From NCBI GenBank assembly GCA_900169975.1, contig LT827126.1:496001-560000 (forward strand): a DNA stretch of 64,000 nt, written 5' to 3'. Shown piece after piece: positions 10,278 through 22,345 of the stretch. Origin of the DNA: Pseudoflavonifractor sp. Marseille-P3106. GTDB lineage: Bacteria; Bacillota; Clostridia; Oscillospirales; Oscillospiraceae. The position numbers were made by a program, and so were the translations under genes. Numbering within the stretch: the first letter of the stretch is position 1; each line of letters opens with the position of its first letter. Below the pieces are notes generated by a model. It was not told where the DNA came from, did no database searches, and was given only the letters and a program-made list of their open reading frames with translations.

Positions 10278-10871
10278 TCACCGGGAGGCCCGGGACTTGC
10301 GGGCGGAAGCGGGGGGGCGATCCAGAAGCTGGCACGGGTTGGGTTCAACAAAGCGGATGAGAAAGACCTCGTAGATCCGGACCAGCAGATTCCACTCATC
10401 CTTGCCCATGACGCCGGTCTCCTTCAGATTTCCCTTGCGCTGGAGCCACTTGGTGTTGCGGACCGAGCCGCCTGCGTGGAGTCCGTCCACGGGGACATTC
10501 TCCACCTCCTCCAGCGTGTGGCTCAGAGCGTTGAACATGGCCTGGATCATCAGCAGGTAGACACAGCGGTCTCCGGGGGAGAAGGTGGAGAGCCGGTCGG
10601 GGAACCCGTTGGTGAGCAGGGGGTTCTCCAGGTTCTGGGTGGTCCTGGCATAGGTCAGCACCACCGCATCCCAGGTGGCGTTGTCCACGGTGCCGGTAAC
10701 GGGGAGACGGAACTCCCGCTGGAAGATCATCACCGCCTCCAGCGTCTCCTCTCCAAACAGCCCGTCGGGGACCAGCCGGGGGATGACGGGGTAGACATAG
10801 GAGATCTGCCGGAGCATGGCCTGGAGGCTCTTTACCGGCCGGCCCAGGTACTTGCTTTCGTCGAGCGCCAT
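10278..10871 (-). CDS. Peptidoglycan-binding domain protein, third gene of the SleC-like set
   Basis: A 197-residue protein made of PGBD-type repeats. The first is clear (VKSLQAMLRQISYVYPVIP, PDGLFGEETLEAVMIFQREF, TGTVDNATWDAV). A second, degenerate unit lies at about 90-175 (FSPGDRCVYLLMIQAMFNAL, VPVDGL, TGVMGKDEWNLL). No signal peptide is visible, as for spore proteins made and retained inside the mother cell or forespore. The ATG lies 3 nt after the preceding gene and has GGAAGGAGG upstream. It probably supplies extra cortex-binding modules to the SpoIID/PGBD protein. It has no catalytic domain of its own. Confidence 0.8.
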   Translation of the reverse strand: MALDESKYLGRPVKSLQAMLRQISYVYPVIPRLVPDGLFGEETLEAVMIFQREFRLPVTGTVDNATWDAVVLTYARTTQNLENPLLTNGFPDRLSTFSPGDRCVYLLMIQAMFNALSHTLEEVENVPVDGLHAGGSVRNTKWLQRKGNLKETGVMGKDEWNLLVRIYEVFLIRFVEPNPCQLLDRPPASARKSRASR

Positions 10872-10874
10872 TGT

Positions 10875-12092
10875 TTAAAACCCTCCTTCCGTATCCCGGC
10901 TGCCCAGGGTCAGGGAATAGCCGGGGTATTGGGTCAGCCGGGTGGTGGTGCCGTAGGCGCTGCTGGCGTCAGCCCCGGCCGCCTTCTCCTGGGGGAAGAG
11001 GACCGGATTATCCAGCACGGTCTCCGACACCCCCTGGAACTCCCGGTAAAGGTAATCCCAGGTCTCTGCGTCCACCACGCCGGTCTCCGGCAGGTGTTTT
11101 TTATGCTGGAAAGCCCGCACGGCCTCCTCCGTCTCCGCACCGAACACCCCGTCCACCGTCACTGGGGGTATGGTGTCGTTAAACTGGGCCAGCATCGAGA
11201 GCATGTACTGGAGAATGCGCACCTTCTCCCCGGTGTCTCCCCGCTTCAGGGCGTCGGGGTACTGGAAGGAGATGCCGAAATAGTCCTGCCCCTCGCTCAC
11301 CAGCTCGGAGAGCTTTTTGATGCCCGCGTAGAGATAGATCATCTTGTACCAGGTGGCCTCGCCCACGATGCCGTCAGAGGTGAGGTTGAAGATGGACTGG
11401 AACTTCCGCACGGCGGCCTCGGTCTGATCGCCGAACACCCCGTCCACCGGCCAGATCTTGGGGATGGCGGGGTAGTCCTGGGAAATGCGGTTCATGGCGG
11501 TCTGAAGAAAGGTGACGTTGGATCCGCTGCTGCCCTTGCGCAGCGGCGAGCCCGGGTAGGACTGCTGGATCCCCCGGATGGGGGCGTCTGTGACCAGCTC
11601 GATGTTGTTTCCGTAGTAGTTTCGCAGGATCTCCATGGAATCATATCCCTCCAAAGCCAGGTCCTGGCTGCCCCACTGGGACAGTCCGTCGCATGTGGTG
11701 GTGGTGCCGTTGCAGAACTTGGCGGAGAGGGGCTCCACGTTGCCCTGGCGGCGGATGTAGTCGGTGAAGATCTCATCCACCAGCTGAGAGATGTTCTCGA
11801 AGATGTTCCGCCCGGGGATGAACTTCTGATCCTGAGCGGTGGTGGAGGTGATCTGGAAGGGGTAGCCCCGGCTGCGGTAAAACTCGGTGTACACCCGGTT
11901 GAGGGCAAAGGAGATCTGTGCCAGGATGTTGGCCCGAAGGGCGGAGGGCTCCCAGGTGGGGTAGATCTCGCTGGAGGCCACGTTCTTGATGTAGTCAGGG
12001 AAGGAGACGGTGACGTTCTGCCCGCCGGAGCCCGCTGTGCCGATATGGACGGTGATGTACTCCGGGACGTAGGGGGTGGTGGTCAGTGCCAT
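10875..12092 (-). CDS. SleC-like spore cortex-lytic enzyme core: SpoIID domain plus two peptidoglycan-binding repeats
   Basis: A 405-residue protein. A SpoIID/LytB lytic transglycosylase-type domain spans about residues 25-165: FPDYIKNVASSEIYPTW carries the expected catalytic Glu, and GLSQWGSQDLALEGYDSM matches the SpoIID GxSQxGA region. Two PGBD repeats follow (VDGVFGDQTEAAVRKFQ and VDGVFGAETEEAVRAFQ). This is the domain order of clostridial SleC, which degrades cortex peptidoglycan in germination. The SleC N-terminal pro-domain is encoded by the separate gene just upstream. It is about 45-50% similar by eye to the AT-rich SleC-like protein in the inserted element. AAGGAGG precedes the ATG. 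No signal peptide. Confidence 0.82.
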   Translation of the reverse strand: MALTTTPYVPEYITVHIGTAGSGGQNVTVSFPDYIKNVASSEIYPTWEPSALRANILAQISFALNRVYTEFYRSRGYPFQITSTTAQDQKFIPGRNIFENISQLVDEIFTDYIRRQGNVEPLSAKFCNGTTTTCDGLSQWGSQDLALEGYDSMEILRNYYGNNIELVTDAPIRGIQQSYPGSPLRKGSSGSNVTFLQTAMNRISQDYPAIPKIWPVDGVFGDQTEAAVRKFQSIFNLTSDGIVGEATWYKMIYLYAGIKKLSELVSEGQDYFGISFQYPDALKRGDTGEKVRILQYMLSMLAQFNDTIPPVTVDGVFGAETEEAVRAFQHKKHLPETGVVDAETWDYLYREFQGVSETVLDNPVLFPQEKAAGADASSAYGTTTRLTQYPGYSLTLGSRDTEGGF

Positions 12093-12104
12093 GGCATAGC
12101 CTCC

Positions 12105-12497
12105 TTATGTGAGCGGCTGGGGCGTGATCTGGACGATGTTGTAGGAGTTTCGGGGGATCTCGTGTTCGGCCATGGGGATGAGCTCCACCTCCTGAAGGGA
12201 GTTGACCCCGGGGAACACCTGGGCATCCTCCACGACCTCCTGCTGGTACCCGGGATGCTCCACCCGCAGGTCCACGGCGGTGAAGGGATTGACCGTTCCC
12301 GGCGTTTTGCTCTCCTGGGCAGGGGGCGCCGGAACTTCGACAGGGGGGATCTCCCCGTTTTCATCGGTGATACGGACCGCCAGCAGGGTGTGTTTTTTGC
12401 CGGTCTGGCGCTGGCTGATGGCCACAGTGGCCCCAGCCACAGGGATCTGCGCCACGGAGGTATAAACCCGGGCGGAAATCGTTCCATTCTGGTACAA
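12105..12497 (-). CDS. SleC-type N-terminal (pro) domain protein, separate gene
   Basis: A 130-residue beta-sandwich protein like a carboxypeptidase-regulatory domain: GTISARVYTSVAQIPVAGAT, a central ENGEIPPVEVPAPP turn, then AVDLRVEHPGYQQEVVEDAQ and VFPGVNSLQEVELIPM. The same fold forms the N-terminal part of the fused SleC-like protein at 19.9 kb (QVNTFLQGVGSPTQGVTVRV and LFPGQTAIQNVFLLPS). Here it is a stand-alone gene 12 nt before the SpoIID/PGBD gene. TTG start with AGGAGG 8 nt upstream. A sporulation sigma-E-like promoter precedes it. It may act as a pro-peptide or assembly partner supplied in trans. Confidence 0.78.
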   Translation of the reverse strand: MYQNGTISARVYTSVAQIPVAGATVAISQRQTGKKHTLLAVRITDENGEIPPVEVPAPPAQESKTPGTVNPFTAVDLRVEHPGYQQEVVEDAQVFPGVNSLQEVELIPMAEHEIPRNSYNIVQITPQPLT

Positions 12498-12816: not shown

Positions 12817-13219
12817 TTACTTGTCGAACGCCGGGTTGACGAAATAGACGTTTTTCTGGTCCATGCGCTCTTTGGCCAGCCGGACGGCCTCGCCGAAGCG
12901 CTGGAAGTGGACGATCTCCCGCTCCCGAAGGAAGCGAATGACGTCGCTGACGTCGGGATCGTCGGACAGGCGGAGGATGTTGTCGTAGGTGACCCGGGCC
13001 TTCTGCTCAGCGGCCATGTCCTCGCTCAGATCGCAGATGGGGTCGCCCTTAACTGCCATGGAAGCGGCTGTCCAGGGGAAGCCGGAGGCGGCGGTGGGAT
13101 AGATGCCGGCAGTATGGTCCACAAAATAGGCATCGAAACCGCCGGTCTTGATCTGCTCTTCGGAGAGGCTCCGGGTGAGCTGGTGGACGATGGTTCCGAT
13201 CATCTCCAGGTGGCCCAGT
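12817..13219 (-). CDS. cotJC: CotJC spore-coat protein (Mn-catalase family), C-terminal segment of a split gene
   Basis: Encodes the last two-thirds of CotJC, from LGHLEM to NPAFDK, including HQLTRSLSEEQ, GGFDAYFVDHTAGIYP and the EREIVHFQRFGEA metal-ligand helix. There is no proper start. The first in-frame Met (IGTIVHQ follows) has no ribosome site, and the frame runs back into the inserted element. The missing first 65 residues are encoded at 21537-21730 on the same strand. Joining the segments at the shared GA core gives a continuous 198-residue protein, the normal CotJC length. The break lies in the EE-L-G-H motif that supplies metal ligands, so neither part can be active alone. Confidence 0.9.
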
Positions 13220-13240
13220 TCGTGCGTACCATGAGAATAT
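13213..13240. other. Left attachment junction (attL)
   Basis: On the + strand cotJC sequence GGCCCAG runs into the TC core (13220-13221; GA on the coding strand), then 6 nt, ACCAT, 3 nt, AATAT. This ACCAT/AATAT arm is the mirror of the arm at the other junction. The recombinase gene ends 32 nt away. Confidence 0.8.
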
Positions 13241-13253
13241 ATATGAGTATATT

Positions 13254-14864
13254 TTAATATGGCAGTTTGGGATATATGCGGATATTCATATCCCCGCCGC
13301 CGCTCCGACGATTCCGGTTTGTTTTTGTGTATTCCACTTTCTGAAGGACACGTTTCAGAAGGTCATTTTTTTCTTTTGGGCTCTGTGCCAGAGGGTAAGA
13401 GGCCAAAACAGTGCGGATCATAGGGGAGATCGCCGCCCGGGCCTTTTCCTGATGTTCCATATGCTGAAGCTCTATCGAGATCTGCTCAAGCTGCGTTTGG
13501 TTTTCCTTCTGCCGCTCCGAAATAGCACGACTGCGCTGCAAGAAAATCTCCGTCGAATAGATTCCCTGCTCCACCAGCTCATAAGCGCGCGCCTCCTGCG
13601 CGGCAAGCTGATCGTGCTCCTTCTGCAGCGCGGAGAGGGCTGCGCGGAGCGCGCCGGAAGAGTCACCCTGGGCCGGATCTGACTTTGTGGACTGATATTC
13701 CAGATCAAAGTTCTCCAGCCATTCCCTCATGGCCTGAAGGACGCCCTGCTCGACCACCACCAGGTTGGAGGCAACGGTGGGACAGTATGTATGCGGACAG
13801 AGCAGCGTCTCCTGCCGGCCGTTTTGATAGGGCCGCCGTACCATGGCGTGGCCACAGCTTCCGCAGATTACCAGGCCGGAGAGAGGATTCTTCATGGCAA
13901 CCTGCTTGGGTCCGGGACGGCTTGGATTGTCCAGCAGAAATTTTTTCACATCATCAAAGACCTCTTGGGAGATCTGCCCCCGGTGGCGTCCCGGATAGAG
14001 CGAGACATCCTCCTGGGAACTGCGTGGACGGGAGACGCGCACCTCTCCATCCACAACGGATTTTTTAGCCGGACGGTAATTGTGCCGGACCCAGCCGGCA
14101 TTGACAGGGTTGATCAAAATCTCCCGCACCACGGCCGCCGTCCATTTTTTTCCGGACGGGGAAGGGATGGACATCTCGTTCAACTTGGTGGTGATGGCGG
14201 CGGAACCCATCCGGCGGGTGGTGCCGTCAGGCATGGGCTGCGGATGGCTGGCCCAGTAATACATGAGCTGAAGGACCTCGGAAGCCCCGGTGTCATCCGG
14301 CTCCAGCGTATAGCCCTTTTCGTGCTCCAGCTTGACTCTTCGCCAGCCGTAGGGGGCCTTGTTGGCAATCCATTTTCCCTCTTGGACGCTGAACAGGCGG
14401 CCGCGCTGGATCCGGCGATTAATAGCCTTGTATTCCCGGCGGGACATGAACAGGCCGAACTCCATGTATTCCTCGTCGTACTCGTCGTCCGGTCGGTAAG
14501 TCTTTTCCGGTGTGACAATCAGCGTGCCGCTGTATCGAAATGCCTGGGCGACCACGCCCTGATCAATGGTATCTCCGCGGGCCAGACGTGGGATCTCCAT
14601 CACCAGGACGCCTTTCCAGGCTCCCTGCTCCACTGCGTCCAGAAGTTTTTGCATCTGTGGACGTTCCGCAATGGTGTCTCCGGACATGACGCCCTCTTCG
14701 TAGATGTAGGTCACATTGATCTGCATCTTCGCTGCCAAAGACAGCAGCGTTTCCCGGTGGCGCTTCAGTGTGTCCCCGGATCCCTGGGCCTCCATCTCCA
14801 TATCCTTTCTGGATTTTCGGAGGTACATGCAGTATTCGGTGGAACTGTTTGTGCTAAAGGGCAT
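13254..14864 (-). CDS. Large serine recombinase (site-specific integrase/excisionase)
   Basis: A 536-residue protein. The N-terminal resolvase domain has the nucleophilic Ser in YLRKSRKD (about residue 16), then EEGVMSGDTIAERPQMQKLL and EIPRLARGD, the conserved Arg region. A recombinase (DNA-binding) domain follows from about 165 (NKAPYGWRR, NPVNAGWVRHNYRP). A zinc ribbon lies near 365-395 (CGSCGHAM...CPHTYC), then a long coiled coil (about 425-490). All parts of an active large serine recombinase are present. ATG chosen with AGAGG 8 nt upstream; an in-frame GTG three codons earlier overlaps that site. GC content is close to the host, unlike the csp genes in the same element. Confidence 0.93.
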   Translation of the reverse strand: MPFSTNSSTEYCMYLRKSRKDMEMEAQGSGDTLKRHRETLLSLAAKMQINVTYIYEEGVMSGDTIAERPQMQKLLDAVEQGAWKGVLVMEIPRLARGDTIDQGVVAQAFRYSGTLIVTPEKTYRPDDEYDEEYMEFGLFMSRREYKAINRRIQRGRLFSVQEGKWIANKAPYGWRRVKLEHEKGYTLEPDDTGASEVLQLMYYWASHPQPMPDGTTRRMGSAAITTKLNEMSIPSPSGKKWTAAVVREILINPVNAGWVRHNYRPAKKSVVDGEVRVSRPRSSQEDVSLYPGRHRGQISQEVFDDVKKFLLDNPSRPGPKQVAMKNPLSGLVICGSCGHAMVRRPYQNGRQETLLCPHTYCPTVASNLVVVEQGVLQAMREWLENFDLEYQSTKSDPAQGDSSGALRAALSALQKEHDQLAAQEARAYELVEQGIYSTEIFLQRSRAISERQKENQTQLEQISIELQHMEHQEKARAAISPMIRTVLASYPLAQSPKEKNDLLKRVLQKVEYTKTNRNRRSGGGDMNIRIYPKLPY

Positions 14865-14865
14865 A

Positions 14866-15178
14866 GGGGTCACCTCTTAATCTTTGTGAAGCGTGGACTC
14901 GTAATAAGTGCCGCCGTTGCGGTTGGGATCGTAGTAGTACCGCTGTGGAAATACTGGACATCTGGGTCTCGGGGATCCAATCGGCCTTGGCGTTGAGCAC
15001 AACAAGCGCTGCGACCGCGGCGAGGGGCGGGATGTACGTCGTCTCATATAAATTCTGGTTGATAATTATGCATGAAAAGCTGTGCGTAAAATCACTAATA
15101 AAATGTGGCGCCGCATATCTTCAGCGGGCGCGGATCTCATCGATGGTCTGAACTTTCCGCCTTGATCCTGTATAGCGG
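14866..15178. other. Gap upstream of the recombinase; no supportable gene
   Basis: About 310 bp. Minus-strand frames contain protein-like fragments (for example YETTYIPPLAAVAAL, and in another frame RYYYDPNRNGGTYYESTL ending at a TAA just before the recombinase). No single frame joins them with a start and ribosome site. This may be a decayed small gene. It also likely holds the recombinase promoter. Confidence 0.4.
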
Positions 15179-15379
15179 ATGTCTGAGCCAGCAGATCACG
15201 ATAATAAGTGGAATCGTCTGAATCGGATCGCGGAAACCGTAGACAAGGTAATCAGTATCATCAGAAATACCTTTGGACAGCAAGCCGCCTGCAGCGGAAA
15301 TCAGCTTTTGTCTGCAGAGCAGGAGAAGGTAAAGGAACTCACGAGGGAAATTATCTTAAGGAAGAAACACAATAACTGA
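15179..15379 (+). CDS. Small hypothetical protein, first of three small ORFs in the element
   Basis: A 66-residue, helix-rich, highly charged frame (NRIAETVDKVISIIRNTFGQ, then SAEQEKVKELTREIILRKK). No family was recognised and no clear ribosome site precedes the ATG. Its TGA lies 1 nt before the next small ORF, and a third follows within 30 nt, so the three may be co-transcribed. It sits beside the recombinase in the opposite orientation, a usual place for accessory or control genes. Confidence 0.4.
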   Translation: MSEPADHDNKWNRLNRIAETVDKVISIIRNTFGQQAACSGNQLLSAEQEKVKELTREIILRKKHNN

Positions 15380-15380
15380 G

Positions 15381-15512
15381 ATGCGACGGGTAACAGTATC
15401 GGTTCCAGAAAGCGTTGACAAAAGAATCCTTAACTCATTGAGGCTGGAATGGCCAACGAGTTTAGCAAGAAGGACAGCGCGCGAGCGCGGCATGGGACAA
15501 ACCGCATTTTGA
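15381..15512 (+). CDS. Very small basic protein, second of three small ORFs
   Basis: A 43-residue frame, MRRVTVSVPESVDKRILNSL then an Arg-rich tail (ARRTARERGMGQTAF). The ATG follows the previous stop by one base, so translation could be coupled. The basic composition and short beta-like N-terminus recall small DNA-binding proteins of the ribbon-helix-helix type, but no family match can be claimed. Confidence 0.35.
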   Translation: MRRVTVSVPESVDKRILNSLRLEWPTSLARRTARERGMGQTAF

Positions 15513-15539
15513 ATAGGATTTTCTGAGGAGGTGGCAGTG

Positions 15540-15719
15540 ATGATTGAGCCCCAGGGAAATTTGGTCAAGACCTATCATTTTAAAGATTGCACAGTAGAGG
15601 TCTATGACGCTGCCTACGCCGGAAAAACGGAGGCGGAGCTAGATCAGATCCGGCTGGAGGCCCGCCGGGTGGCCTGTGACATTGTAGACCGGGCAGCGGC
15701 CAGAGGGATCAAGGTGTAA
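15540..15719 (+). CDS. Small conserved-looking protein, third of three small ORFs; candidate recombination accessory factor
   Basis: A 59-residue protein beginning MIEPQGNLVKTYHFKDCTVE, then a helical second half (AELDQIRLEARRVACDIVDR). The ATG has a good GAGGAGGTG site 7-8 nt upstream; an in-frame GTG three codons earlier touches that site. From general knowledge, short proteins of this look occur next to serine recombinases in Firmicute mobile elements. A role as a directionality factor is a guess from position only. Confidence 0.55.
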   Translation: MIEPQGNLVKTYHFKDCTVEVYDAAYAGKTEAELDQIRLEARRVACDIVDRAAARGIKV

Positions 15720-15721
15720 AA

Positions 15722-15744
15722 AAACCTGCCCGGAAGGGCAGGCT
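15722..15744 (-). terminator. Short hairpin after the small-ORF cluster
   Basis: ACCTGCCC, GGAA loop, GGGCAGGC immediately after the third small ORF. The T run lies on the minus-strand side, so it would terminate minus transcription or simply cap the + transcript. Confidence 0.4.
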
Positions 15745-15767
15745 CACGAAAGAGAGGGGGACGAGCT

Positions 15768-15842
15768 GTGGGTCTGTCCGTGGACGACAAGTTCTGGATA
15801 TCGGCGGCGGCCCTGATTCTTTGGGCCGCTTGCCGAATCTAA
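15768..15842 (+). CDS. Possible 24-residue membrane micro-protein
   Basis: GTG start, with GAGAGGGGG about 6 nt upstream. The product is MGLSVDDKFW followed by ISAAALILWAACRI, one membrane-spanning stretch. The ribosome site and the single clean hydrophobic helix argue for translation. The short length means it could be chance. Confidence 0.35.
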   Translation: MGLSVDDKFWISAAALILWAACRI

Positions 15843-16103
15843 AACCATCTGCCAAGGTAGAACGGAGATCGTCACCTGTAAAAGGGCGGTGTAGCCGTTG
15901 CTTTTCATTCCTGCGGGATATGTTGAATTGTATAAACATATAATGTGCAACTCAAATAGTTTGCCATGTTATTGGCAACGATGCAAGGCGGAGTTTGATA
16001 GAAGTAACAGCTTGCCATAGAACGGCATACCAATAATTAAGGAGAGAGTATATCCAAACCCTTATCATTGAGTTTTTCATAGGCAGAACTGAAGGAGACC
16101 AAC
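15843..16103. other. AT-rich leader region before the csp operon
   Basis: No gene is supported. It holds a sigma-E-like promoter and a copy (15877-15895) of the sequence CACCTGTAAAAGGGCGGTG, close to one in the terminator hairpin at the far end of the csp operon. Confidence 0.4.
15916..15944 (+). promoter_or_regulatory. Sigma-E-like promoter for the csp-sleC operon
   Basis: GGATATG, 14-bp spacer, CATATAAT fits the mother-cell sigma-E pattern (ATAT core at -35; CATANNAT at -10). It lies in the AT-rich leader 160 bp before the first small gene and 460 bp before the first protease. By-eye assignment. Confidence 0.42.
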
Positions 16104-16367
16104 ATGATTAAGTCATACGCTGCATCGCGCACACATAAACTATTATTAAATTTTAAACCCAGTCCGGATTGTTGTTTATCTGGAATTGCGTTAAACGATC
16201 TGAAAAATCTTTCAAAAACAATCGTATTTATATGGCTGAGAAACAAAACTGGGCTTTGGTTTCATATTAACTCGGTTCGTGACGGTTTCGTGGATGGATA
16301 TGCTTTAATCCAAAGTCAATGGATATATCAACGTATTCCAATATCCCGGATCTATGCATATTACTAA
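16104..16367 (+). CDS. Small hypothetical protein preceding the csp genes
   Basis: An 87-residue frame with a good GAAGGAGA site 7 nt before the ATG. The second half is rich in aromatic and beta-forming residues (IVFIWLRNKTGLWFHINSV, GYALIQSQWIYQRIPIS) and resembles short beta-barrel-like proteins common in clostridial genomes. No function is known. It ends 40 bp before the first protease gene, in the same orientation, and has the same AT-rich composition. Confidence 0.48.
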   Translation: MIKSYAASRTHKLLLNFKPSPDCCLSGIALNDLKNLSKTIVFIWLRNKTGLWFHINSVRDGFVDGYALIQSQWIYQRIPISRIYAYY

Positions 16368-16407
16368 TTCCTGGTTTCAAATATGATTAGTGTTCGGAGG
16401 AATCAAC

Positions 16408-18162
16408 GTGACCGATTTTCAAAGGAACCCGGGACATTTGATGCACACACAATTTATGCCTGCATTTGTCGAAGGTGCCAATCATGATTTTATGCAGAGC
16501 GATTTAACAGAGGTAATTGTAAAATTCAGCGGCGATATTCAATCCATCAGACAGGATTTGGATGCCCAAGTTGAAATTTTGCTGAAAGGATATGCCATTA
16601 TTACATTAAGTCCGAATAAGATCGGACGGTTATACTCCTATCCGCAAATTGAAAGCGTTGAAATCCCCAAAAATCTATACATTGGAGGTTTATACAACCT
16701 TACCTCCTCCTGTATCCGCGCCGTTCAAAGTACAAACAGTTATGGCTTAACAGGGAAAGGAGTCATTGTATCGGTTATTGACTATGGGATTGACTATATG
16801 CACCCCGACTTCCGAAAAGCAGATGGAAAAAGCCGGATATTATACTTATGGGATCAGACAGTTGCGGGAACACCGCCTGATGGATTTTCGGGCGGTTCTG
16901 AATATTCGAACGAACAGATCGATCAGGCAATACAATCATCGGATCCATATTCCGTGGTTCCAAGCATAGATGCCGGAGGCCACGGTACAGCAGTTGCCGG
17001 GATCGCGGCAGGAAATGGAAGCGAGAATCCTGATAACATTGGAGTTGCTCCTGAGTCAGATCTGATAGTTGTTAAAATTGGTCAAAGAGGGTTTCGTTCT
17101 TTTGCCCGTACAACAGAATTAATGCGCGCGATAAAATATGTCATTGAAAAATCCCGTCAATTAAATCAGCCAGTTGTGATTAATATGAGCTTCGGGATGA
17201 ACGAAGGTTCCCACCGTGGGGATTCCTTATTTGAAACCTATGTTTCAGATATCAGCAGCGAATGGAAAACATCCATTGTTGTTCCAACAGGCAATGAGGC
17301 TGCAGCCGGGCACCATTATTCGACAAAATTGCGCTCTGACAGCGTAAAGGTTGTTGAATTTTTTGTTGCAAACGGAATCAGTAAATGTTTCCTTTCCGTT
17401 TGGAAAGATTTTGCCGACATATTCTCAGTGGAGATGGTTTATCCCGACGGCTTCTCCTCGGGAATCATCAGTTTGGAAAACCAAATTCGGAACATTAGTG
17501 TTGGTAATTCTGTCATGACCGTTATTTATAGACAGCCCAGTCATTATTCTGTTAGACAGGAAATCAGTTTTAACATTCAATCTGCCAACGGAATGATTCC
17601 CTCCGGGCTTTGGAAATTGCGTTTTGTTACGTCTTCGATTGTAAACGGAAAAATTGAAATTTGGCTGCCGACGGTTGAAGAGGTTACTTCCAGTACTCGT
17701 TTTTCTAAACCGATTGAAACAATGACCATGACGATACCGTCTACAGCCAGGAAGGTGATCAAAGTCGCGGGTTACAACGATCGGGTTGGAAATATTGCTG
17801 AATTCTCTGGAATTGGGAGCGCAGAGGAGGCAGAACCCAGACCGGATGTGGCAGCCCCGGCTGTTTCTATTTTGGCACCCAAAAACGGCGGCGGCTATGA
17901 TGCCTATACAGGCACTAGCATGGCGGCGCCGTTTGTTACCGGTTCGGCAGCGTTAATGATGCAGTGGGGAATTGTTTTGAAAAATGATCCTTTCCTATAC
18001 GGTGAACGGCTGAAAGCCTTTTTACGTCTGGGTGCTGCCCGCAGACAGAATCAGGATTATCCAAACGCCTCATTTGGCTACGGCACATTATGTTTGAGCA
18101 ATACAATGAGTTATTTGGAACGATACAAATGGGGAGGGGATAATCAATGGCTTTCAATATAG
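16408..18162 (+). CDS. Subtilisin-like germination protease, Csp family (first copy)
   Basis: A 584-residue S8 peptidase. The triad is intact: Asp in VSVIDYGIDY (about residue 127), His in DAGGHGTAVAGIAAGNG (about 192) and Ser in TGTSMAAPFVTG (about 506). The oxyanion Asn is in PTGNEAAAGHH. A 90-residue pro-domain precedes the catalytic domain and a jelly-roll-like insertion (about 310-430) interrupts it, as in clostridial CspA/B/C. Csp proteases activate pro-SleC in germinating spores. GTG start with CGGAGG 7 nt upstream. It overlaps the next protease gene by 16 bp. No signal peptide, and AT-rich codon use unlike the host. Confidence 0.92.
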   Translation: MTDFQRNPGHLMHTQFMPAFVEGANHDFMQSDLTEVIVKFSGDIQSIRQDLDAQVEILLKGYAIITLSPNKIGRLYSYPQIESVEIPKNLYIGGLYNLTSSCIRAVQSTNSYGLTGKGVIVSVIDYGIDYMHPDFRKADGKSRILYLWDQTVAGTPPDGFSGGSEYSNEQIDQAIQSSDPYSVVPSIDAGGHGTAVAGIAAGNGSENPDNIGVAPESDLIVVKIGQRGFRSFARTTELMRAIKYVIEKSRQLNQPVVINMSFGMNEGSHRGDSLFETYVSDISSEWKTSIVVPTGNEAAAGHHYSTKLRSDSVKVVEFFVANGISKCFLSVWKDFADIFSVEMVYPDGFSSGIISLENQIRNISVGNSVMTVIYRQPSHYSVRQEISFNIQSANGMIPSGLWKLRFVTSSIVNGKIEIWLPTVEEVTSSTRFSKPIETMTMTIPSTARKVIKVAGYNDRVGNIAEFSGIGSAEEAEPRPDVAAPAVSILAPKNGGGYDAYTGTSMAAPFVTGSAALMMQWGIVLKNDPFLYGERLKAFLRLGAARRQNQDYPNASFGYGTLCLSNTMSYLERYKWGGDNQWLSI

Positions 18163-19904
18163 ATGACGAACAGAATCTTCCGCTTTCAGAGTTTGTCAAA
18201 TTGCCTACTACAGTAGATTTTCAGGCTCTCAATACGGAAAGATTCAAAATATTTGCCAAAAGTCGTCCCTACATACGTCTTGGAACTGAATTTGAAAACG
18301 GCTATATTGTAGGCTATATCAATTACGCTTATGTAACACAGCTGTTGAACGACCTGGGTGGTGACTTTTTATATTTTTTGCCTCGGATCATGTCACCTAC
18401 AGATAGTCAGAGTAATGATGCATCCGGAATTACGCAGGTTCTTAACCAGCCATTTTTAAATTTGTCTGGTCGGGGCGTTATCATTGGCATTGTGGATACA
18501 GGAATTGATTATCGAAAAGATGCCTTTAAGTTTGAGGACGGCTCTACAAAAATCTTGGGAATCTGGGATCAAACCGTTGATGGAAACAGACAGGATGATT
18601 TATACTTTGGCTCCACATATACAAGTGACGATATTAATCGAGCCAATCGCGCTTCAGATCCCTACAGCATTGTGCCGTCGGTTGATGAAGATGGTCATGG
18701 AACGTTTTTGGCCTCTGTGGCGGCAAGCAATGAAACAGGCGAATATATTGGTGCGGCACCCAAAGCATATTTACTAATTGTCAAACTGAAAAAAGCCAGT
18801 CAGTATTTGATAGACCGTTATCTGGTTACAAATGACAACCCCAATCTGTACGAATCTACCGATTATATGCTTGGAATGAAATATATTCTTGATGCGTCGG
18901 AAAAATTCAATATGCCGATTGCCATGTGTATCGGAATGGGAACAAACGGGGGCGCACATGACGGCAGCACGTTGATAGAGGAGTATATCAGCTTCGTATC
19001 CCAGCGAGTGGGGTATGCCTTTATTACAGCTGTCGGGAACGAAGCCAATGCGAAACACCATACCCAAGGGAGAATACCTGCAACAAGAGCCTCGGACCGA
19101 ATCAGCATCAAGGTGGGAGAGCAAGGGGCATCGTTTACAGTCATTATTCACAGCCCAGGATATGATAAAATATCGGCAGGAGTCACATCCCCCACTGGCG
19201 AAGCAGTATCCAGAGTGTCGTTTCAATCGGGACTCGAATACAGTAATCAGCTTATTTTGGAAAATACCAATATCACTCTTCGATACTTTCGAGATAACAA
19301 CAATAATGTAATTGTTTCGTTCAAGAACGCCACTCAGGGAATCTGGAACATTATTCTATATGGGGATCTGATTATTAACGGCGAATATTGGGCATGGCTT
19401 CCGATCACCGGGCAGGTCAGTCCTACCGTTGAATTTTTGAGACCGACACCTGAGTATACGACTGTAATTCCTTCTACGGCCCTACACGCCATTAAATGTG
19501 GTGCATACAACAGCAAGGATCAGAGCCTGCTTGTATCCTCATCGTGGGGGCCGACCAGGTTATTCCGGTTTGCACCGGATTTTGTTGCTCCCGGAGTAGA
19601 TGTAAAAGGGATTTATCCTACAGGTTATGGAACAATGACAGGGACCAGTGTAGCAGCTGCCATAACGACAGGCCTTACCGCATTGCTGTTCGAGTGGGGG
19701 ATTGTCAACAGAAATAAAACTGCGATGGATTCAGATCTCATCAGAAGTTATTTGATTAGTGGGTGTCAGCGAGAAAGCAACTTAACATATCCAAATGTAC
19801 AATGGGGCTTCGGAAAGGTCAATCTATATGGTACCTTCGAGGTGATCAAAGAGTCTGCACTGGACTTTAATACAATAATTGAAGAAGGTGATTTTTTACA
19901 ATGA
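18147..19904 (+). CDS. Subtilisin-like germination protease, Csp family (second copy)
   Basis: A 585-residue S8 peptidase paralogous to the gene before it. The triad is again complete: Asp in IGIVDTGIDYRKDAF (about residue 117), His in DEDGHGTFLASVAASNE (about 183) and Ser in TGTSVAAAITTG (about 502), with Asn in AVGNEANAKHH. In Clostridioides difficile some Csp members are pseudoproteases, whereas both copies here look active. The pro-domain is about 85 residues and the inserted beta-domain spans about 300-430. GGGGAGGGG precedes the ATG inside the previous gene. The stop overlaps the next start (ATGA), giving a tightly coupled three-gene operon. Confidence 0.92.
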   Translation: MAFNIDDEQNLPLSEFVKLPTTVDFQALNTERFKIFAKSRPYIRLGTEFENGYIVGYINYAYVTQLLNDLGGDFLYFLPRIMSPTDSQSNDASGITQVLNQPFLNLSGRGVIIGIVDTGIDYRKDAFKFEDGSTKILGIWDQTVDGNRQDDLYFGSTYTSDDINRANRASDPYSIVPSVDEDGHGTFLASVAASNETGEYIGAAPKAYLLIVKLKKASQYLIDRYLVTNDNPNLYESTDYMLGMKYILDASEKFNMPIAMCIGMGTNGGAHDGSTLIEEYISFVSQRVGYAFITAVGNEANAKHHTQGRIPATRASDRISIKVGEQGASFTVIIHSPGYDKISAGVTSPTGEAVSRVSFQSGLEYSNQLILENTNITLRYFRDNNNNVIVSFKNATQGIWNIILYGDLIINGEYWAWLPITGQVSPTVEFLRPTPEYTTVIPSTALHAIKCGAYNSKDQSLLVSSSWGPTRLFRFAPDFVAPGVDVKGIYPTGYGTMTGTSVAAAITTGLTALLFEWGIVNRNKTAMDSDLIRSYLISGCQRESNLTYPNVQWGFGKVNLYGTFEVIKESALDFNTIIEEGDFLQ

Positions 19905-21139
19905 GTAATGGTAATACGCCTAAGGATTTCAATACAAGTGGAGGCCTTGGCTATCTGCAAGTGAATACTTTTTTGCAGGGTGTTGGAAGTCCAACGCAAG
20001 GGGTGACTGTTCGTGTTTTAAATTCGGATACCAAATCGATCGTGAGCGAATCTCAAACTGATGCGCAGGGGCAGGTAAAAAATATTGCACTGATCACTCC
20101 TCCGATTGAGTACTCCCTGCAATACGGTTCACCCAGGCCCTTTAATCAATATGATGTACAGGTAATTTACCAGGACTATCAGTCAGCATATATCAGCAAT
20201 GTTCAGCTTTTTCCGGGACAAACTGCAATCCAGAATGTTTTTCTGCTGCCAAGCTACAACGCCATCGACATTCCATATCCCACTTTATGGGGGATATATC
20301 CGCCTAAAATTCCTGAATCGGAGGTGAAAAAATTGCCGTTACCGACCGGGCAGATTGTCCTGCCGGAGCCGGTTGTGCCGAGTTTGATAACAGTACATGA
20401 GGGGCGACCAGAGGATTCATCGGCAAGTAACTATACGGTTGGGTTTAAGGATTATATAAAAAACGTGGCCAGCAGTGAAATTTATTCCACCTGGCCGCGT
20501 GAAGCAATCAAAGCGAATGTGTTTGCGATTCTGTCGTTTACCCTGAATCGTGTTTACACAGAATGGTATCGGGGGAAGGGATACGGATTTACCATAACAA
20601 ACTCAACGGCGTTTGATCAGTCTTTTTCCTTCGGCAGAAACATTTTTGACGAAATTTCCGAGGTTGTTGATGAAATATTTACAACCTATATTTCAAGGCC
20701 CGACTTGGTCCAGCCGCTGTTCACGCAATACTGTGACGGCAAACGCGTAAAACGGGCGGGTTGGCTCAGCCAGTGGGGCTCTAAAGATCTGGCAGATCAG
20801 GGGTTGAATGCTTTACAAATACTGAAGACCTATTACGGCTCCGATATTGTCCTGAAACAGGCTAAAAAGGTGGAAGGAATCCCATTATCCTTTACAAATG
20901 TTCTTAAAATAGGTTCAACAGGCGGTGCTGTAAAGACAATACAACAGCAATTAAATGCCATTTCCAACAATTATCCTTTGATCAAAAAGGTAGTAGTTGA
21001 TGGGGTTTACGGAGCCCGTACCGCCGAGGCGGTCCGTACATTCCAACAAATATTTAATCTTCCAGAGACAGGAGAAGTAAATTTCCCAACATGGTATAGC
21101 ATATCAAATATTTTTGTAGCGATTAGCAAACTAGCATAA
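19901..21139 (+). CDS. sleC: SleC-like spore cortex-lytic enzyme (pro-domain, SpoIID domain, peptidoglycan-binding domain)
   Basis: A 412-residue protein. An N-terminal beta-sandwich pro-domain (about 18-125: YLQVNTFLQGVGSPTQGVTV, LFPGQTAIQNVFLLPS) is followed by a linker and a SpoIID-type domain (about 180-320) with FKDYIKNVASSEIYSTW, whose Glu is the expected catalytic residue, and WLSQWGSKDLADQGLNAL. One PGBD repeat ends the protein (VDGVYGARTAEAVRTFQQIF). This is SleC architecture, directly behind two Csp proteases, matching the csp-sleC locus of clostridia where Csp cleaves pro-SleC to start cortex degradation. ATG overlaps the preceding stop. AT-rich. The resident GC-rich homologues at 10.3-12.5 kb carry the same domains on three genes. 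Confidence 0.88.
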   Translation: MSNGNTPKDFNTSGGLGYLQVNTFLQGVGSPTQGVTVRVLNSDTKSIVSESQTDAQGQVKNIALITPPIEYSLQYGSPRPFNQYDVQVIYQDYQSAYISNVQLFPGQTAIQNVFLLPSYNAIDIPYPTLWGIYPPKIPESEVKKLPLPTGQIVLPEPVVPSLITVHEGRPEDSSASNYTVGFKDYIKNVASSEIYSTWPREAIKANVFAILSFTLNRVYTEWYRGKGYGFTITNSTAFDQSFSFGRNIFDEISEVVDEIFTTYISRPDLVQPLFTQYCDGKRVKRAGWLSQWGSKDLADQGLNALQILKTYYGSDIVLKQAKKVEGIPLSFTNVLKIGSTGGAVKTIQQQLNAISNNYPLIKKVVVDGVYGARTAEAVRTFQQIFNLPETGEVNFPTWYSISNIFVAISKLA

Positions 21140-21246
21140 TAACAGAAACAATACCCTGCCCTGCCAAACTCTCTAGGGCGTATCTGAAAAGTGGAAATGC
21201 TTGTCTTTTTCTGCAAAGAGCAGCATTTGCTTCGTTAAAAAGCCTC

Positions 21247-21277
21247 GGAATCCACAAAGGATTCCTGCGTTTTTTGC
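21247..21277 (+). terminator. Terminator 1 after sleC
   Basis: GGAATCC, ACAAA loop, GGATTCC, then TGCGTTTTTTG, about 110 nt after the sleC stop. Confidence 0.65.
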
Positions 21278-21360
21278 CTTGCGTCTGCTTGCCCTTTGCG
21301 AAAAATCCGTTGATTTCTTTGTTTTCAGAATGAAATGGAGAAATTTTGACGATAATTAGA

Positions 21361-21403
21361 ACACGCCGCCATCACCTGCAAAAGGGTGGTGGCGGCGTGT
21401 TTT
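21361..21403 (+). terminator. Terminator 2 near the right end of the element
   Basis: ACACGCCGCC...GGCGGCGTGT with inner CACC/GGTG pairs, followed by TTTTC. It would stop transcription from the element before it enters the cotJ operon antisense. Confidence 0.8.
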
Positions 21404-21517
21404 CATGCCTTGGATAACCTATACCAGATGACAGAGTACGCCTTGACAATACAATATGCAGACTCGGGATGAGGTATATTGAAGTCAGTTGCTGTTTTCC
21501 ATACGTCCATTTTATTG

Positions 21518-21546
21518 ATATTTAAATGGTCTGTATTCTTCCGTGC
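21518..21546. other. Right attachment junction (attR)
   Basis: On the + strand ATATT, 3 nt, ATGGT, 6 nt, then the TC core (21537-21538) and cotJC sequence TTCCGTGC. Joined to the left junction arm this gives a 40-bp site symmetric about the core. Confidence 0.8.
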
Positions 21547-21730
21547 CGATATCGGTCAGCAGAGCCTTCAGCTCAGGGTAGGGCATGGCGTACCGCTGGG
21601 ACAGATACCGCAGGGACGCGCCCAGTTCGCCGTCCGGTCCGCCATATTGACTGATGATCAAAGCCGCCAGTTTGGGGTTGGTGTTTTTGATCTTCACCGG
21701 GTACTGGAGTTTTTTCTCATAGACAAACAT
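21537..21730 (-). CDS. cotJC: CotJC spore-coat protein, N-terminal segment of a split gene
   Basis: Encodes the first 65 residues of CotJC: MFVYEKKLQYPVKIKNTNPK, then SQYGGPDGELGASLRYLSQR and LTDIGTEE. The frame then enters the element and stops after YRPFKYQ, so the integrated state gives a 72-residue truncated product. The remainder lies at 12817-13219. AAGGAGG precedes the ATG by 14 nt, and the start lies 3 nt after the CotJA-CotJB gene, so promoter and translation signals are intact. CotJC is a mother-cell-made manganese-catalase-like inner-coat protein. 194 + 403 nt gives 199 codons including the stop, with no frameshift. Confidence 0.9.
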
Positions 21731-21733
21731 AGT

Positions 21734-22192
21734 TTACGCTTTGCCTCCTTCCGGGAAGGCCCAGGGCCAGGGATCCTTGATCCAGCTGGAAAAATTCTTC
21801 TGCCCGGCCGCGGCGTGCTGGAACAGCGGGCCGTACATGGATTCATACTTCTCCCGGCCCTCTTTTTCCAGCGCGGCATACTGCTGGAAGAGGGAAAAGG
21901 CCTCGCCGTCCCCCTGGTGAGTGTCCAGATAGAGGCCCAGCTCCAGCAGCACGAACTCCAGTGCCTGGAGCTCGCCCAGAGGACCGGAGACCGCGTTGGG
22001 CGCGTCCGCCTTCATATGGAAGGGGAGGTTGAGCCCTGGGAAGAGCGTTCCGTTGCTGAGGGCGTCGTTCTGGCTGTACTTCTGCGCGCCCGTCTGCTGA
22101 AATGGGACATAGGGGACCGCCAGCGGAGCGCACTCCGGCAGGGCGCCGGAGCCGTCGGGACAGGCGGGAGCCGTCGGTTGATCGGGATACAA
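21734..22192 (-). CDS. CotJA-CotJB fusion spore-coat protein
   Basis: A 152-residue protein joining two normally separate coat proteins. Residues about 25-60 are CotJA-like (AVPYVPFQQTGAQKYSQNDA, then LSNGTLFPGLNLPF). Residues about 75-150 are CotJB-like (LGELQALEFVLLELGLYLDT, H, EKYESMYGPLFQ, and WIKDPWPWAFPEGGKA). In Bacillus and clostridia cotJA, cotJB and cotJC are three genes. The fusion lies 3 nt before cotJC. TTG start is preferred because AGGAGG lies 9 nt before it; an upstream in-frame ATG would place that site inside the gene. Spore-coat assembly function is inferred from the family. Confidence 0.85.
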   Translation of the reverse strand: MYPDQPTAPACPDGSGALPECAPLAVPYVPFQQTGAQKYSQNDALSNGTLFPGLNLPFHMKADAPNAVSGPLGELQALEFVLLELGLYLDTHQGDGEAFSLFQQYAALEKEGREKYESMYGPLFQHAAAGQKNFSSWIKDPWPWAFPEGGKA

Positions 22193-22345
22193 GATAGGAC
22201 TCCTCCTTTGCATTTGCTCAAGAGGGAAGGATGTTCCCCCGGGCTATCCTATGCCGCCGGGGGAACCGGAGCGTCCCGGCCCTTTCCGCGCCGGCGGGCA
22301 TATTAGCGGGTAAGGCTCATAAATTGGCAGGGGAGGGGATGCCCT

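Follow-up and report, generated by a model that had tools for sequence, protein, structure and literature searches.

The cotJC locus of Pseudoflavonifractor sp. Marseille-P3106 raises the question of whether a spore-coat gene that lies in two pieces, 8.3 kb apart, is the casualty of an insertion or a gene that is put together again when it is needed. We examined this locus in a 64,000-nucleotide stretch of contig LT827126.1 (the window) and compared it with related genomes. The cotJ operon runs leftward here, and a fused cotJA-cotJB gene is followed by cotJC, which is interrupted at codon 65 by a segment carrying a large serine recombinase. We put at about 0.74 the probability that this 8.3-kb segment is an intervening cassette of the skin/gin type, which would be spliced out of the DNA to rebuild the gene.

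A search of the whole assembly (3.12 Mb in 20 contigs, 99.15% complete) with PF05067 at E ≤ 0.001 returned two matches, at 21512-21730 (-) and 12817-13203 (-), and no further copy of cotJC. Both pieces are open with no internal stop codon, and joining the flanks at the GAA that they have in common gives 597 nt encoding 198 amino acids plus the stop, with EELGHLE restored. Codon 65 (Glu66 of the CotJC alignment, whose numbering is that of the window protein plus one) presumably encodes a metal-ligand glutamate. The rebuilt protein aligned end to end with the intact CotJC of 10 genomes of the genus at 81-93% identity, the best match being that of L012 (93.4%). The G + C content is 38-47% from ~16 kb to 21.2 kb, within the element, ~53-60% in the recombinase stretch and ~57-70% in the flanks. 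An earlier sequence-only reading of the window had described the two same-strand pieces, the in-frame join restoring EE-L-G-H and a recombinase close to one junction, and all three held; the stop codon of the recombinase gene lies 32 nt from the core. Its element borders were correct within a few bases, but the identical core is merely 3 nt (GAA) and the element measures 8,317 nt. It had named an intact copy elsewhere in the genome as a refutation, and PF05067 found none; it had also called for a search for uninterrupted cotJC in relatives, which ten genomes of the genus possess at full length. The lack of an intact copy in the assembly, the in-frame junction and the comparative evidence that relatives maintain split cotJC as a functional gene support its proposal that cotJC is what excision would rebuild. 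A sporulation gene whose frame is regained by exact removal of the insert and a serine recombinase at the element's edge mark a skin/gin-type element, and both are present in the window.

The split is not peculiar to this strain. In the genus, 14 of 16 genomes passed the PF05067 cut-off, ten with full-length cotJC and four with an interrupted gene, and each of the four has a different recombinase group (G000, B2; G015, B1; G001, D; G010, a further site; the groups are defined below); the 3' end of cotJC in G001 was not found. PF05067 matched 318 of 400 genomes sampled from the family. Among 80 of these with several partial matches, at least 41 hold complementary cotJC pieces on one contig and strand in gene order; adding G125 and the genus genomes G000, G010 and G015, split cotJC occurs in at least 45 of the 318. 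These same-contig counts, tallied by hand from printed rows, are lower bounds, some genomes not having been fetched; of five candidates outside the 80, four were inspected separately, which added G125, and G339 was not. In a sample of the class, with 257 PF05067 matches in 391 genomes, at least 13 of 46 re-examined genomes, from 12 further families, have split cotJC with gaps of at least 2.8 kb. Eight of the class genomes were fetched, and a recombinase lies inside every covered element; the B element of G540 (L225) is the one case in which it is not near a junction. Isolates bearing a name among those with split cotJC include Lactonifactor longoviformis DSM 17459 (L129) and Pseudoflavonifractor sp. 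An44 (L107). The gene can be broken more than once: it is in three pieces in the one-contig genome G540, a single cotJC in L075 has recombinases at its A, B and D junctions (the outer pieces lie beyond the locus), and in G564 four pieces are spread over three contigs, with one piece below the family cut-off. Because cotJC is split elsewhere in two genus mates, and the pattern is family- and class-wide, the split in the window is beyond chance. What the sequence-only reading saw as a single split gene is real, but it belongs to a hotspot struck by several recombinase lineages.

Some genomes depart from this pattern. In two genomes of another family (L233:584-1166 (-) of G470 and L234:673-1264 (-) of G670), cotJC is broken in frame at site B with no insert, possibly through imprecise-excision scars or sequence errors; G595, G651 and G720 likewise appear element-free, and none of these five entered the element count. 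We also excluded G559, whose two pieces overlap widely. On contig C1 of G156, one cotJC piece is opposite in strand to the other two, suggesting an inversion, and in the one-contig genome G441 (contig C1) the pieces lie 157 kb apart, which may reflect a very large insert or a rearrangement.

In alignment numbering, the breaks fall at ~30-33 (site A, near Glu36), Gly63 (B1), Glu66 (B2, the site of the window), 134-138 (C, at Glu137) and ~178-180 (D, after His170), with one case at ~54-55. By analogy with manganese catalases, we assign Glu36, Glu66/His69, Glu137 and His170 as the manganese ligands. In B1 we place the crossover at the GG of a glycine codon, and in B2 at the GA of a glutamate codon. 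A large serine recombinase is present between the pieces at every one of the 33 fetched loci in which both are on the same contig (L022-L053 plus the window); its distance to a junction is at most 253 bp in 31 of them, 2.0 kb in L033 and 3.7 kb in L049. A tree of 44 recombinases has one group per site (B1, 21; A, 10; C, 7; B2, 3; D, 2; one single); it requires five changes of site, the minimum possible and a number that none of 200 shuffles reached, although the tree is a quick one with long branches and an unsure deep order. The clade of the window recombinase is rare, with three of the 44 members (window, L044 and L028). Conversely, among the best 80 named loci retrieved with a B1 recombinase profile, a cotJC piece lies within 400 bp in 58 and anywhere in the locus in 67, and four of 80 viral-contig loci retrieved in the same way contained one, in each case the middle piece, bounded by sites A and B. 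The viral-collection contigs L145, L146, L147 and L148 hold only this middle piece (residues ~27-65), with a B1-type recombinase in the locus. Several rebuilt attP sites form strong dyads (17/18 in L028, 17/18 in L033 and 15/18 in L036), and that of L028, in the clade of the window, is near-perfect, its midpoint falling on the GA at which the window crossover is placed; most C-site cases and that of the window are not strong in this test, which had no run for L040 and whose automatic anchor was off site in L029, L039, L042, L043, L047, L048 and L051. The core common to attL and attR of the window, GAA, has the same register as the 9-nt core of L028, a match that is weak alone.

How such an element might work is suggested by known cases. 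In C. difficile, according to the portion of PMC5025042 available to us, excision of skin combines a constitutive recombinase with a directionality factor under sigma-E control. Like skin, which interrupts sigK in B. subtilis and C. difficile, the window element divides a mother-cell gene and encodes a large serine recombinase, and the factor of C. difficile skin resembles the small gene with a sigma-E-like motif in B1 elements (below); here the target is cotJC, the element is 8.3 kb with no phage family in six scanned open reading frames (ORFs), and excision is predicted. gin in gerE of B. cereus ATCC10987 is, in the accessible text of PMC5595907, a non-prophage element with the serine recombinase GirC and the 6.5-kDa GirX, whose target gene is rebuilt in sporulation; the window element shares with it the non-prophage nature, the serine recombinase and, as a candidate, the small factor, and differs in target gene and cargo. 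SP-beta in spsM, vfbin in spoVFB, vrin in spoVR and yin in yabG are prophages or prophage-like in what is available of PMC4191935 and PMC10747680. They likewise split a sporulation gene with a recombinase-bearing element, whereas in cotJC six different positions are targets of unrelated clades, and a single gene can have as many as three recombinases next to its pieces. Judged by its sequence-level features, the window element would work like a skin/gin-type intervening element. We propose that a non-phage cassette entered the Glu65 codon by means of the large serine recombinase that it encodes; the recombinase together with a small directionality factor would reverse the insertion, and exact removal between two GA dinucleotides would rebuild cotJC. 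By comparison with relatives, skin, SP-beta and gin, removal would take place in the mother cell; since this cell dies, the germ line would retain the insert at no cost.

The sequences upstream of the recombinases bear on the timing. A small gene on the same strand, mostly directly before the recombinase, was found clustered in 14 of 20 B1 elements searched, and another small gene in 7 of 7 C elements. The motif CATAnnnT lies 12-45 nt before the start codon of the B1 small gene in 39 of 56 distinct upstream sequences, against 1.8 expected and at most 10 in 300 shuffles, but in 2 of 56 in each more distant interval; of the 44 upstreams that have CATA, 40 retain an A 18 nt ahead of it. The shuffles ignore common descent; what carries the argument is that neighbouring columns show near-zero conservation. 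Clostridial sigma-E promoters have a CATA-type -10 element. Their -35 element is ATA in the part of PMC3789822 available to us, and the B1 motif fits this combined pattern. When a matrix derived from B1 was run over the window, two of the three best sites lay just before a host cwlD-like gene (22318) and the sleC-like operon (12526), and the genome has a sigma-E gene (390 bits).

These signals help to judge an unlikely alternative, that the segment is an ordinary mobile element moving in and out of the chromosome of vegetative cells at random, so that cotJC is restored only in cured cells with no developmental control. Transfer does occur, as the recombinases of L035 and L043, from different genera, are 87% identical, and at least one cotJC element, L022, carries mobilisation genes. 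In 42 upstreams, full sigma-E and sigma-K patterns were not enriched directly before the recombinases; the hexamer CATACA by itself did exceed expectation (5 against 1.4, with no more than 4 in any of 100 shuffles), and a single strict match lies before the recombinase of L028. yin is also excised at all time points in the available text of PMC10747680. Against random excision stand the position-specific sigma-E-like motif before the B1 small gene and the recurrence in one mother-cell gene. Excision of the window element in the mother cell is suggested by the sigma-E-like promoter of relatives, although the window element itself shows no clear one.

The selection on the pieces is informative about a second, less probable alternative, in which the insertion of an integrative element killed cotJC, a coat gene that this strain can do without, and excision is irrelevant. 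In 15 within-genus pairs of split loci, the median ratio of nonsynonymous to synonymous differences (pN/pS) was 0.073 for the 5' piece and 0.097 for the 3' piece, compared with 0.098 in 36 pairs of intact genes; ten of the split pairs are at the same site and five across different sites, and pairs share rows. L031/L032 and L045/L046, which have a common site and recombinase, have 3' pieces with a pN of 0 at a pS of 0.31 and 0.36, respectively, and the pS of their recombinases (0.52 and 0.46) is near that of cotJC (0.31-0.54). Because no amino acid changed despite this synonymous divergence, these 3' pieces are not dead, and by this measure the promoterless 3' pieces of relatives are constrained as much as intact genes. 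Such constraint over long divergence, together with the two open pieces in the window and a recombinase that retains its three domains, speaks against decay.

Several features of the window nevertheless count against excision and are what decay would predict or leave room for. The shared core is 3 nt and the rebuilt attP dyad is 11/18, which is not significant (p ~0.2); there is no good sigma-E-like site before the window recombinase or the 59-residue candidate factor; and excision is deduced from sequence rather than from reads or PCR. In addition, whereas the 5' piece is tight (pN/pS 0.03-0.10), the 3' piece ranges from 0.08 to 0.30 against nine intact genus mates, below 1 and above the intact maximum of 0.189 in six of the nine comparisons, and constraint on it may therefore be somewhat relaxed. 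A third alternative, that each piece yields its own polypeptide and these combine into working CotJC with no excision of DNA, is very improbable, for although the 3' piece contains an ATG-started internal ORF (12817-13203), this piece lies 8.3 kb from the cotJ promoter, the break is inside what we take to be a metal-ligand codon, and 5' pieces terminate in unrelated, variable tails.

We retain the skin/gin-type cassette and turn to its contents (Table 1). The first protease ORF has the CspB prodomain (PF18425, 51 bits) and the subtilase domain (PF00082, 130 bits), both above cut-off, which identifies a CspB-type protease; it scored 491 bits with NCBIfam CspBA, below the 1250 cut-off set for the fused protein, and 333 bits with CspB 4i0w. 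The second scored 293 bits with CspBA and 280 bits with CspC, both below cut-offs, and the Asp, His and Ser motifs appear intact by eye in both. The SleC-like ORF reached 40 bits with TIGR02669, below cut-off. The 59-residue ORF, divergent from the recombinase, had no Pfam match and is a candidate directionality factor.

Table 1. Features of the cotJC locus and its intervening element (window coordinates)
Feature	Position	Strand	Basis
Fused cotJA-cotJB, first gene of cotJ operon	21734..22213	-	PF11007 + PF12652 in one 159-aa ORF
cotJC 5' piece, codons 1-65, terminating in GAA core	21536..21730	-	PF05067 model 1-67
att (attachment site) core GAA, 5' side	21536..21538	-	Same letters and codon register as 13219-13221
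att core GAA, 3' side, codon 65	13219..13221	-	Match to 21536-21538; presumed Mn-ligand Glu
cotJC 3' piece, codons 65-198 + stop	12817..13221	-	PF05067 up to model 198
Intervening element, 8,317 nt including one core copy	13222..21535	.	Span between cores; GC drop over cargo
Large serine recombinase, B2 clade	13254..14873	-	PF00239, PF07508, PF13408; clade of 3 with L044, L028
59-residue ORF, candidate directionality factor, divergent from recombinase	15540..15719	+	53% identity over 55 aa to ORF beside L044 recombinase
CspB-like germination protease with prodomain	16390..18162	+	PF18425 + PF00082
Second Csp-like subtilase	18147..19904	+	PF00082
SleC-like protein, SpoIID-like region + peptidoglycan-binding domain	19901..21139	+	PF01471 above cut-off, PF08486 just below

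At E ≤ 1e-10, this genome has no homologues other than the CspB-like gene and its neighbour. Because the CspB-like gene is absent from the 15 other genus genomes searched, several of them incomplete, the Csp-SleC cargo is probably accessory, and it may work in germination. The host sleC-like operon adjoins cotJ and is spread over three ORFs (10278-12497), and the element homologue is in one piece. In C. difficile, the csp operon is under sigma-E and sleC under sigma-K control, according to the accessible part of PMC3789822. The cargo matches CspB/CspBA and SleC-like domains of the clostridial CspBAC-SleC cascade, with the difference that here they are carried by an element that interrupts cotJC. 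Pfam and NCBIfam (PHROGs not searched) detected no phage families, nor any relaxase or mobilisation families, in the six element ORFs scanned, and scans of genome contigs and viral contigs found no relatives of the window recombinase. We rejected a prophage on the basis of the missing phage families and the recombinase with no viral-contig relative.

Beyond this strain, we lean towards the view that cotJC is a developmental safe harbour across Clostridia. Its 198 codons would offer at least six docking positions to unrelated serine-recombinase lineages, most within a few codons of metal ligands; its two to four pieces would all be spliced from the mother-cell chromosome, and accessory cassettes, here a germination cascade, would travel between species hidden in a gene that only the doomed cell needs. 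Sporulation-gene rearrangement has been published, in the literature as available to us, for a handful of cases (six genes); cotJC alone is interrupted in one family in at least 45 of the 318 genomes with a match, and beyond it in at least 13 sampled genomes that represent 12 other families. The reason why integrases are drawn to mother-cell genes becomes testable, and many site-matched recombinases with natural att sites are provided. The sequence-only reading knew of no cotJC-targeting element, and neither cotJC as a target, nor multiple sites and clades, nor germination cargo was found in the literature searched, whose scope excluded preprints, most subscription papers and some papers naming cotJC (e.g. 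PMC4028888, PMC3533761).

Small cassettes carry host-type genes, including a germination module that could alter spore behaviour on transfer. The cargo of other cotJC elements comprises a MATE transporter (L037), a methylguanine transferase with a methyladenine glycosylase (L048), a DinB-type polymerase with a pyrroline-5-carboxylate reductase (L052), an S-layer protein (L044), a DNA methylase (L053) and an ADP-ribosylglycohydrolase (L040). A sleC-like operon also occurs in L058, where the element borders are undefined. A pyrimidine nucleoside phosphorylase was recognised by Pfam in L030 and by eye in L029 and L041; these elements, of ~3 kb, appear to contain little beyond the recombinase and this enzyme.

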